From: Sialis fuliginosa
Taxonomy: Eukaryota; Arthropoda; Insecta; Megaloptera; Sialidae
Reading direction: 5' to 3'
Assembly (NCBI GenBank): GCA_961205875.1
Contig: OY540809.1
Coordinates: 11,110,267-11,174,266 of the forward strand
DNA: 64,000 nt
Part shown: one piece after another, positions 19,409 to 23,504 of the stretch
Layout of the letters: each line of letters starts with the position of its first letter
Position numbering within the stretch: position 1 is the stretch's first letter
Notes under the pieces: model-generated
Databases searched by the model: none
What the model was told of the DNA's origin: nothing
What the model saw: the letters and a program-made list of their open reading frames with translations, nothing else
Translations under genes and position numbers: made by a program

Positions 19409-20796
19409 TGAAGTTCGCAAATTCCGAACGTGTAGTAACTAATTGTAAGTTAAAAATAATAAGACAAATAAAAAAAGTTTATTTTTTATTTTTGTATTCT
19501 GTATAATATGTACCTACTGGATTTTACCAATGGCGCATCTATAATGATTTTCAGGGAGTCAATAAGTGATAATGAAAATTTATATTTATGATATTGTATG
19601 TCATATAAATGAAATATATCTAGTATAAAAAAGTATAATATTGTCGAAAATTTTCTCTATCGGGATTTTGATAAAAATACCAATTTTAACTTACATTTAT
19701 TCCATTTTGACTACTTGCATCATGTCTGTGAAAAAAGGTGAAATTTCTGTTTAAGCCTTGTCAATTTTTAAAATTAAAAAAAATATTTTTTATCGATATA
19801 GTTATGTAATAGAAATTTTGATCCTCCCCCCCAAAATATTAAAGAAAGTAATGTATTTTTTATTGAATTATATTTGAAACGGTTCATAATAGAATAAAAT
19901 ATTATAAATAAAAGTAGATGACAATGTTATTATCTATAATCTATGTTCTATTATTTTTTTTGGTATAACGAACTGTTGTGAAGATATTCGATTATGTTTA
20001 ATAATATATGGAAAAGTCATGTGGTGGCCACTGTGGTTAATTCAAAACTATTTTACTTAAAAACACTTCTTTAATATGTTAAAATTTAATTTTTTTTTAA
20101 TGTATAAGAAAGTCTTGTAGAATCCATGACAGTTTTGAGTAATCAAACCCCTCTTAACATACGCCCATGTACACATATGTAGGTAGATACATATATAGGT
20201 ACTTACGGTAATATGTATTGTTACTAAACGCGTCTACCGTTATCCATCCGTTATAATATATATGCAATACAATTTTCCTCTAAAACTTTCTTTTCATTTT
20301 CAAGTAATTGAAATAGTTTTCCAAAACAATTGCTTTATATTTTCGTAGAATTTGTATGAAACTGGTTAATGTAAAATTTAATAAATAGTTCGAATACCAA
20401 AACTATGTAGGTATTTAATTAATGTTTTATCATCCTCACAGTATGTGGTTATTTTAATTTAATATAATTTGTTAATTAACTGTAATTTTAATAACAAATA
20501 AATTTTATTGATGTGTGGGATGTTAATCTTATGAATAAATTAGATTGGGTTTGTTTTAATAATTAGAGAAGATAAAATAAAATACAGTGTTCATGTTTCT
20601 ATTTTTATTTTATTTTTCAGTTTTTTATTTCATTTTATATTTTTTATTACAATGTAATTAATAAAACAAATACTTTTTTACGTGGATAATTAAGTATACT
20701 TATCATATTTATAAAAATCCCAGCATTTGCTCAAGTATTGAGGAAAACCACGAAAAAACCTCAGAAAGGATTGTAAAAAAAAATTTTAATTTGATA

Positions 20797-20823
20797 TTTT
20801 TATATTGCATTGCAATATAAAAA
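20797..20823. other. Short near-perfect palindrome downstream of the nuclease stop
   Basis: About 27 bases reading TTTTTATATTGCA and then its complement, with only the centre unpaired. It lies about 80 bases past the stop codon of the minus-strand nuclease frame. It could form a hairpin in the 3' untranslated region, but an AT palindrome of this size can also occur by chance. Confidence 0.35.
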
Positions 20824-20901
20824 TAAATAAAAAATCCAAGACGTTTTTTTAAATTCAACACTATTTGTTTCATTAATTACATCGGGCAGATCAGAAAATA
20901 T

Positions 20902-21933
20902 TTAATTGGTACAAACGACTGCTTTTTTTAATTCTTCTTTAAAACATTCACTATCCAGTTCTGCTGTGGGCTGAAAGGAGAAGATAATTGGCACAATTGC
21001 TTTTATTAATTCTTTTATGAAGCTAGCAATGTCGGGTTTTATTTTTAAAAGTTGCGCTCTGTGATCACTGATGTCATCCCATAATAGTTGTTTACATTCA
21101 CAATCAGATGTGAAATCATCTCCAGAATAGTTGGCCATTAGAACATGATCGATTAGAGTCTCTGTAGAATTGGTAACTCTTGATGGTTGATCAGTTATCA
21201 TTAGTTTTACTTGATTTTCTTCCAAAAGTTTTAAATACTCCTTTGCATTCTTCAATACATCGATATTAAAATCGCCCATCATTATAATACTTTTTTTTTC
21301 TTCTTTGATTACGTCTAATATTTGTTTCATGATGTCGTAAAATAATTCTATGTTCCCTGCATCCGGGCGATTTTTATATTTCTGAACTCGATAAATACAA
21401 CAAAGAACTATGCTGTGTTCAAAAGGAAAACTAAACTCAATTGCTGAAATTTCAACGTTCCATTCTACAGATAAATTCTCCAAATCATTCCTAGGTTTGT
21501 AATTTTGTTGTTTTTCATCATTTACAAATATTACCGTTCCTCCTGAAGCATGTTTACAATCTTTTCGCTGAAATGAAGATGCCACATTGTATTCTTGTGG
21601 GCAATGTTTTTTCAAGTTGTATCCAATATCATTTATTTTCTTTATTTTTTTGTTACCATTTTCTTTTTGCGTGTCGTTTGAACTTTTTGCTGTTTTATTG
21701 TTTTCTTCATTTATTTGATTCTCATCATAATTCCGTCCTTTAATTTTATGCTCTGATATGCATAAAAAGTCAGGAATGAAATCTTTTATTTTTTCATATA
21801 ATTTCTTGCCCTTTTTTCGTATACCATTTATATTATGATGAATTATCGAAACGTAGAAATTTTCTTGTAAAAGAAAGACTAGGATTGCTCCTAATAATAT
21901 TATTAATATCAATATTTCAGTTATTCCACTCAT
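20902..21933 (-). CDS. Membrane-anchored EEP-family nuclease, LINE endonuclease-like
   Basis: Intact single-exon frame of 343 residues. Residues 4-22 are strongly hydrophobic (ILILIILLGAILVFLL), a likely signal anchor. Residues 29-300 read as an endonuclease/exonuclease/phosphatase domain of the LINE apurinic endonuclease type: HHNING (N34), SEH (E61), IYR (Y181), GDFNID (D221, N223), TLIDHV (D262) and SDH (D290, H291). All the usual metal-binding and catalytic positions appear present. Residues 66-102 form an Asn/Lys-rich insertion. The last 40 residues include a second moderately hydrophobic stretch (310-319). No reverse transcriptase follows. An in-frame stop lies just before the ATG, so the start is firm. 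TATATAAG lies on this strand at about 21972-21979, though it would leave a very short leader; AATAAA lies on this strand near 20606. Inference: a captured LINE endonuclease or an unusual host nuclease. A 5' fragment of a LINE remains possible, but the membrane segment argues against it. Confidence 0.75.
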   Translation of the reverse strand: MSGITEILILIILLGAILVFLLQENFYVSIIHHNINGIRKKGKKLYEKIKDFIPDFLCISEHKIKGRNYDENQINEENNKTAKSSNDTQKENGNKKIKKINDIGYNLKKHCPQEYNVASSFQRKDCKHASGGTVIFVNDEKQQNYKPRNDLENLSVEWNVEISAIEFSFPFEHSIVLCCIYRVQKYKNRPDAGNIELFYDIMKQILDVIKEEKKSIIMMGDFNIDVLKNAKEYLKLLEENQVKLMITDQPSRVTNSTETLIDHVLMANYSGDDFTSDCECKQLLWDDISDHRAQLLKIKPDIASFIKELIKAIVPIIFSFQPTAELDSECFKEELKKAVVCTN

Positions 21934-21970
21934 GTATTTTTAATCTGCAACGAGTCATAATTTTGCATTG

Positions 21971-21980
21971 TCTTATATAC
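21971..21980 (-). promoter_or_regulatory. Possible TATA box upstream of the EEP nuclease frame
   Basis: GTATATAAGA on the minus strand, about 40 bases before the ATG at 21933. The spacing would leave a leader of only 10-20 bases. The TTGCAG closer to the ATG could instead be a splice acceptor, in which case the true promoter is elsewhere. The two readings cannot be separated from sequence alone. Confidence 0.3.
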
Positions 21981-22040
21981 GGTTTCTCCCACTAATTTGC
22001 TTTGAAGGAAAAAGGGTAAAGTCACACGATCTAATTTATA

Positions 22041-22193
22041 TTAAGCATCTACTCTAGTATTTAGTACATTGTATTTTTTTATTGCATTCTTCTTTACAAA
22101 ATCAGCCAACTTATTTTCTTTAATTGTTGTTTCTTCTTCTTGAAGTATGATATGAGGAGCAAACAGAGACACAAAACGGAATGGAGGTTGCCT
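22041..22193 (-). CDS. Possible 3' terminal coding exon, unknown function
   Basis: An open frame of 50 residues without a Met. It starts 6 bases after an in-frame stop, exactly at an acceptor-like site (CTAAC branch-like text, then TTACAG), and ends in TAA at 22041. The peptide begins RQPPFRFVSLFAPHIILQ and continues with an acidic then Lys-rich part (KENKLADFVKKNAIKKYN). Its composition looks protein-like, and 50 open codons are uncommon in DNA this AT-rich. I do not recognise the family and found no partner exon. It ends about 110 bases upstream of the nuclease start on the same strand, so it could be the end of a neighbouring gene or an upstream part of the same transcription unit. Confidence 0.33.
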   Translation of the reverse strand, partial: RQPPFRFVSLFAPHIILQEEETTIKENKLADFVKKNAIKKYNVLNTRVDA

Positions 22194-22752
22194 CTGTAAC
22201 TGTTAGGATAGGGTTCGACAAACAGAACGACATTTTATTTTAATGGTAACTGATTATACGTTTTAAAAATACATTAACATTTTTAATTTTAAATACAAAA
22301 AGAAATTCGTGAATAATTTCAATATTTTTTGTCCAAATTACAGGATTTTTAATAGGGAGCAATAGCTAAAATTTATATTCCATATAACAGCGTTCAAAAA
22401 TAATTCGTAAGTTTTACTGTATTTCATACTCCTTGGGGATTTTGATTTTTATAAAATAATTATTTTATTTATTAATTATTTTAAAAATTCAAAATTGAAT
22501 ACGTTTTTTACTTTTTCCCCGTAAAATGTGTATATTTTTTCGACATATACCATTTAAGAAACCAGAATTGATTCAGATAATAATATAATCAGCTCTTATT
22601 ATAAGTAAGTAGATCATATTTTAGTAAAGCTTTGGCAAATAAGACAACGCTGTAACGTCGCCGTATCGATATTGTAAATAAATAAAGCAGACACTTAACT
22701 AGCGTTAAAACAAGTGCCAACTTCATTCATTTGATTTGAATTCTCTAGGTCA

Positions 22753-22926
22753 CATTGGCGTAGTAAGAAAAAAATTCGGGGGGGGGGGATAAATACATAT
22801 AAGTAAAATTTTTTGAAGGTATTTTGAACTGAAGTTTTCTCAAAACATACGTTTTTTTAAGAACACTGAATATTTCGGGGGGGGGGGGTTCGACCCCAAA
22901 ATCCCCCCCCCGTTCCTACGCCACTG
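22753..22926. mobile_element. hAT-like element (CAGTGGCGTAGTAAG type) with 8-bp duplication
   Basis: Left CATTGGCGTAGTAAG, right CGTTCCTACGCCACTG, flanked by CTAGGTCA on both sides (22745-22752 and 22927-22934). 174 bp. Long G and C runs lie next to both ends. Same family as 39472-39793. Confidence 0.9.
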
Positions 22927-23504
22927 CTAGGTCAATACGGTGACATTATAGCGCTGTCTTATTTGCCAAGGCTTAAATATTATCTTTGTTTTGTTTTGTA
23001 GATTGAACTGCTGATTTTTTATGCTCGTTTGACGCGACCTTTATTCCATAAAATATGTGCTTATGTGTTTTTACAATCAAGGTCAACATGTCGCGCATTT
23101 TTTACATCATTTATTTACCAAATGGTAGACATGGTAGCGAGTTTGTTTGTTATGCTGCAGTGTAGCAGACGTCGCGTTTACAGTTATATAAACTTTATTG
23201 ATGATAGCTGGAAGAAATGCGTCATACTTGATGCATAATTTAACATTGTACTAATAGCACCAAGTAAATAAGAATTATTTTTTTATTAGTGCTAATAGAT
23301 AAATGCTATCTGTTTTGATTAATTACTCTCCGTTTCGTAAGATGGCAGCACTTGTATTAATTTTGTTTTGTTTGAATCGAATTTATAAATGTGTCAAGCG
23401 TGTATATACATACTTTAGTCGCTGGAGGAAATTGAAAAGAAAAATTTGTCATATGTTAGCAATAAATGTATAATAGATGTTTTTTTTTAACCTATAAACT
23501 TGAG

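Follow-up and report, generated by a model that had tools for sequence, protein, structure and literature searches.

A single-copy host gene captured from the endonuclease of a LINE appears to be present in the Sialis fuliginosa genome, and this reading is given a probability of about one half. The captured endonuclease (EN) is presumed to be of CR1/L2-like origin, and the protein is probably functional and probably tethered to a membrane. The gene lies in the window, the whole 64-kb stretch of DNA that was analysed. It lacks two features of LINE retrotransposons, namely a reverse transcriptase (RT) domain after the EN and several copies in the genome, and the locus is single-copy, intact, and immobile, as is typical of a host gene. 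The features of the locus are as follows.

20902..21933, minus strand: intact single-exon frame encoding a LINE-type endonuclease protein of 343 amino acids, stop codon included
21868..21924, minus strand: hydrophobic segment, residues 4-22 (I4-L22), possible membrane anchor (19-residue hydropathy mean 3.04, rare by chance)
21043..21861, minus strand: LINE-type EN domain of the EEP family, covering about residues 25-297 (alignment with LINE ENs, EN profile, and Pfam matches below the curated cut-offs)
21598..21711, minus strand: insert enriched in N, K, and E (residues 75-112, approximately; no counterpart in 11 aligned LINE ENs)
20905..21042, minus strand: C-terminal tail of residues 298-343 (shuffle test without a convincing match to LINEs; hydropathy)
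21972..21979, minus strand: TATATAAG, candidate TATA box with the ATG 38 bases downstream (from its sequence; weak evidence)

Reading frame and endonuclease domain

The length and base composition of the frame suggest that it is coding. It begins with an ATG at 21933 and ends with a TAA at 20902 on the minus strand, and it spans 345 codons from stop to stop. The plus-strand translation of 20902-21933 is riddled with stops. In 40 simulated 64-kb sequences (second-order Markov, matched to the composition of the window), the longest stop-free frame had a mean of 135 codons and a maximum of 165. The second-longest ATG frame in the window encodes 128 amino acids. The G content of the frame is 27% at the first codon position and 11% at the second and third positions, compared to 11-15% in the flanks, and this periodicity is a coding-like signature. 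The gene is apparently intron-free. A T at position -3 is a weak start context, and the ATG of this gene has one. Counting both strands, the window contains five copies of the TATATAAG octamer found upstream of it and 247 of the looser motif TATAWAR.

The catalytic residues of the EEP family are all in place. The EN domain carries N34, E61, Y181, D221, N223, D262, S289, D290, and H291. An alignment of the protein with 11 hand-picked LINE ENs from the same genome has 12 invariant columns, all kept by the protein: seven catalytic residues (N34, E61, D221, N223, D262, D290, and H291) together with G131, G132, Y181, G220, and S289. The EEP catalytic set (N, E, Y, D-x-N, D, S-D-H) is complete in the protein and invariant with the 11 LINE ENs. 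The initial annotation of this DNA had described, with no strand given, an intact frame of 343 residues in AT-rich surroundings and had assigned positions to the seven catalytic residues. The frame was borne out, the surroundings are AT-rich (27% GC at 20001-22000), and all seven residues stand at the positions given. Enzymes of the EEP/LINE EN family are Mg2+-dependent and nick their substrates. The predicted product has the standard EEP active site and would most likely act as a DNA-nicking, Mg2+-dependent phosphodiesterase.

The C-terminal tail has a weaker hydrophobic stretch starting at residue 302 (Kyte-Doolittle mean over 19 residues 1.71). An origin of the tail from a LINE linker was considered and rejected, as the best p value in five shuffle-test comparisons was 0.048 and the others ranged from 0.105 to 0.862.

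Kinship with LINEs and absence of reverse transcriptase

Sequence comparison establishes that the protein is related to LINE endonucleases. Used as a single sequence, it matches the Pfam families Exo_endo_phos_2 (endonuclease-reverse transcriptase; E 2.9e-4) and Exo_endo_phos (PF03372; E 5e-4), both below the curated cut-offs, and no match was found among the solved structures searched (best E 0.53). When a profile of the 12 aligned ENs is compared with solved structures, L1 EN comes first (E 4.3e-25), above the AP endonucleases, and TRAS1 EN is found at 6.5e-14. Because this profile is eleven parts LINE and one part query, these matches support the EN group rather than the query alone.

In its own genome the protein finds itself and 15 weaker matches with 30-34% identity. 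Seven of the 15 were opened (L002-L008), and all of them keep RT. In the translations of L003, L004, L005, L006, and L008 the RT motifs continue in the frame of the EN, while L002 and L007 have RT remains in other frames. A tree was built from 18 ENs, every one of them from the S. fuliginosa genome to which the window belongs; in it the query groups with L002, L004, L006, L007, and L008 with a support of 100/100. Its end branch is long, at 1.35 changes per site. The LINE group of the query (L002, L003/L004, L006, L007, L008) is taken to be CR1/L2-like, and a second EN group, separate from that of the query, is taken to be Jockey-like. The protein is 23-30% identical to its own LINE group in a second alignment. 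It shares with the ORF2 ENs of this group the EEP domain, all invariant catalytic residues, and a common clade, but it differs from them in having no RT, a single copy, a hydrophobic N-terminus, a 38-residue insert, and a tail of its own.

It is hardly credible that the protein is an ordinary cellular EEP enzyme, such as an AP endonuclease or a DNase I-like protein, with no LINE ancestry. The fold family is shared, PF03372 covers cellular enzymes too, and in DNase I a hydrophobic signal likewise sits immediately ahead of strand 1. However, the best Pfam match of the single sequence is to the endonuclease-reverse transcriptase family, and every one of the opened genome matches (7 of 7, from the 15) is a LINE with RT. 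L1 EN also outranks the AP endonucleases in the family profile, although LINEs contribute eleven of its twelve parts.

No RT accompanies the gene. A profile built from 17 LINE RT regions of the same genome found no RT in the six frames of the whole 64-kb window (best E 0.75). As a control, nine LINE loci with short EN frames (L002, L007, L027, L029, L032, L033, L045, L056, and L069) were searched, and RT remains came up in 9 of 9 at an E value no higher than 0.01, in many cases in a different frame. The same test at the locus of the gene gave no RT remains. A protein search of the genome (392,097,322 bases in 20 contigs) found one full-length copy of the gene among 44 of 44 candidates scored, and the 15 others are at most 34% identical. 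The initial annotation had named an adjoining RT and many near-identical copies as the first two findings that would speak against a captured endonuclease. Both were looked for, and since RT is absent from the window and there is one copy, neither of these tests refutes the claim. According to the proposed history, the EN domain of a LINE would have been captured and the RT half lost, and the remaining EN copy gives no sign of moving.

The EN could also have arrived through another mobile element or as virus cargo, but this is highly improbable. The Rep/helicase/EN proteins of Helentrons carry a CR1-like EN that is closest to CR1 ENs (PMC4067079). In addition, Helitron proteins are present in the genome (30 matches). 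Against this route, a six-frame Pfam search covering about 15.0-21.0 and 21.95-26.45 kb found neither Helitron_like_N nor any other family beside the gene at E 0.01, and no neighbouring host gene. The gene is not fused to a Rep or helicase, as it has its own ATG after an in-frame stop and no Pfam family nearby. Inspection by eye placed none of the 30 Helitron matches within 10 kb of any EN match in two lists, the nearest being about 12.4 kb away. This proximity test is weak because the gene in the window is missing from both lists of EN matches and for one of them 150 of 192 candidates were scored. An EN-profile search of the partial Helitron loci L019-L024 gave no match. No relative was found in viral contigs or phages; a viral or bacterial origin was rejected after 4 and 239 pattern matches in viral contigs, none of which was confirmed, and none in phages. 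A bacterial MAG has one weak match (L085), with 25% identity over residues 202-291.

Hydrophobic start, age, and possible role

The protein begins with a segment that may anchor it in a membrane. The Kyte-Doolittle mean over the 19 residues of I4-L22 is 3.04. Elsewhere in the window, 4 of 2041 stop-free stretches of 24 codons reach 3.0. When the gene is counted in, 2 of 454 ATG-led open stretches attain this value, and the gene accounts for one of the two. In five related LINE frames the maximum hydropathy before the EN motif is 0.36. The hydrophobic start is therefore unlikely to be a mere effect of AT-richness, since it is rare in the window and lacking in five LINE relatives. This agrees with the initial annotation, in which a 19-residue hydrophobic start was described as absent from LINE proteins. 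That annotation had proposed a captured endonuclease directed to membranes or secreted. The first part of this proposal is supported as a LINE EN without RT (one copy, no RT in the window, and grouping with LINE ENs), while membrane targeting is plausible, judging from the N-terminal sequence.

The topology signals of the N-terminus conflict. Ahead of the helix there is only a short, nearly neutral N-tail; beyond it, the next 15 residues bear one negative charge, and R39-K44 then form a basic patch. The -3/-1 rule of signal peptidase was used to judge cleavage, and no good site was found after the helix, making an uncleaved anchor likelier than secretion. The helix would lead with hardly any linker into strand 1 of the EN domain, and it probably holds the protein to a membrane of the secretory pathway. 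Three features tilt the analysis slightly toward a nuclease domain that faces the cytosol rather than the lumen or the outside: the strong hydrophobicity of the helix, the short and almost neutral N-tail, and the basic patch R39-K44 beyond the helix.

A different reading of the same DNA keeps the captured LINE EN and removes the anchor: the T-rich DNA read as a helix would close an intron, and the protein would take its true N-terminus from an upstream exon. Immediately ahead of the EN domain, a tract of 78% pyrimidines does reach an AG at 21864, and the codons of the hydrophobic residues are T-rich or A-rich. However, the acceptor would be AAG, which is a poor splice acceptor. The ATG stands 24 codons before the domain, directly after an in-frame stop and with TATATAAG upstream, and the sole upstream stretch that resembles an exon, 22044-22202, proved to be a dispersed repeat. 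Hydropathy of this level is also rare even within the AT-rich window. A spliced start is improbable on balance.

The age of the gene bears on whether it is functional. In a simulation of neutral decay (400 runs per point on the EN frame, substitutions only), 51%, 26%, 12%, 4.5%, and 0.25% of copies were still free of stops at 1, 2, 3, 5, and 10% substitutions, and all 12 invariant residues were kept in 5% of copies at 10% substitutions. Indels would shorten stop-free survival further. Because 4.5% of copies are stop-free at 5% divergence, the gene either is under selection or was cut loose very recently from an unseen source. The second of these possibilities corresponds to a young non-functional remnant, an EN piece of a LINE family that is absent here (lost or horizontally acquired) and that was separated from its RT too recently to decay. 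Active LINE ancestors alone would preserve all of the catalytic residues, and half to a quarter of the simulated copies (51% and 26%) survive 1-2% neutral divergence. On the other hand, the genome has no close relative of the gene, no RT or other LINE remains lie beside it (compared to RT in 9 of 9 control LINE loci), and none of the five LINE relatives examined has such a hydrophobic start. A young remnant is therefore an unlikely explanation, if one to be taken seriously. The end branch of 1.35 changes per site, set against the rapid neutral decay, implies that the lineage was constrained for nearly all of its length, although most of that length may have been run as an active LINE and not as a host gene.

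The captured host gene is presumably expressed and under selection, and its product presumably catalytic and inserted in a membrane. Points against this reading are the Pfam matches below the cut-offs, the lack of a structure match, the weak context of the ATG, the long end branch, and the conflicting topology signals. It is a rather unlikely extension of this reading that the LINE EN has turned into a free-standing, membrane-tethered host nuclease which would nick or degrade foreign or retroelement DNA outside the nucleus. If true, retroelement machinery would have been reused in the way that TREX1 or DNase I work. A salivary, gut, or defence role is speculation.

Known nucleases share parts of this arrangement. 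In DNase I a hydrophobic signal directly precedes strand 1 of the EEP fold, and the hydrophobic segment of the present protein is placed alike; DNase I, however, does not derive from a LINE, loses its signal by cleavage, and acts in the lumen or outside. TREX1, a DNase tethered to the ER membrane, would be a parallel for a membrane-held nuclease; it faces the cytosol, but it has another fold and a C-terminal anchor. DNA transposons and retroviruses seem to have given rise to host genes more often than LINEs have. In a 2003 paper cited in PMC7284322 and PMC6794283, Iwashita reportedly described a bovine paralogue of Bcnt that carries the RTE-1 EN domain, and it resembles the present gene as a LINE EN captured by the host without RT. 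In Bcnt the EN comes from an RTE element and is fused to a host protein, whereas the present gene is free-standing, presumably CR1/L2-like, and hydrophobic at its start. In Helentrons a CR1-like EN is likewise separated from its RT, but there the EN is the C-terminal part of a transposon protein, and no Rep or helicase was found near the present gene. Capture of a LINE EN without RT thus has precedents in Bcnt/RTE-1 and in Helentrons, and both are fusions. A free-standing or membrane-anchored host gene of this kind was not found in the literature searched. If a free-standing EN did have a membrane address, this would mean that a host can benefit from the nicking domain by itself and that the domain can work outside the nucleus. 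The reading is testable on one gene, as the species has public abdomen poly(A) RNA-seq (ERR11496096, listed in PMC11549539) and an alternate haplotype assembly (GCA_961205855.1).

Flanking repeats and LINE matches elsewhere

The surroundings of the gene contain short and old repeats. No repeats of note frame the gene at 16-27 kb, terminal repeats included, and no Rfam families were found at 18-25 kb. Two flanking repeats were seen: a search that scored 40 of 2178 candidates gave a short one at 22751-22926, and a later one gave an old, diverged repeat at 22066-22232. Further diverged repeats may have been missed, because the first repeat search did not list the one at 22066-22232.

The sequence at 22066-22232 (minus strand) is an old dispersed repeat with 46 DNA matches including itself (40 of 104 candidates scored). 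Its longer matches are 71-78% identical, but several copies share a core of about 60-80 bases at 84-94% identity, and the repeat thus presumably resembles a SINE whose core is conserved. About 86 bases lie between the end of the repeat and the TATATAAG that follows it upstream of the gene. The stretch 22044-22202 was also considered as the last exon of a neighbouring gene and was rejected as a dispersed repeat, since 58 of its 61 matches (itself counted) carry stops. The other repeat, 22751-22926, is short and interspersed, with runs of G and C and a best match of 96% identity among 40 of 2178 candidates. It is enclosed by an inverted repeat with arms at 22622-22669 and 22932-22979, and it therefore looks like part of a MITE.

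LINE EN matches are also found near chromosome ends and in a regular array. Among the 150 of 192 candidates scored, such matches lie 3.5-5.3 kb from the contig start on C1, C6, C7, C9, and C11, and also near the ends of C4 and C5. These positions are presumably those expected of telomere-specific LINEs, for example TRAS or SART. On C4, at 11166167-11168468, three EN matches follow each other with a regular spacing of 980 bases and resemble a tandem array of a LINE piece.
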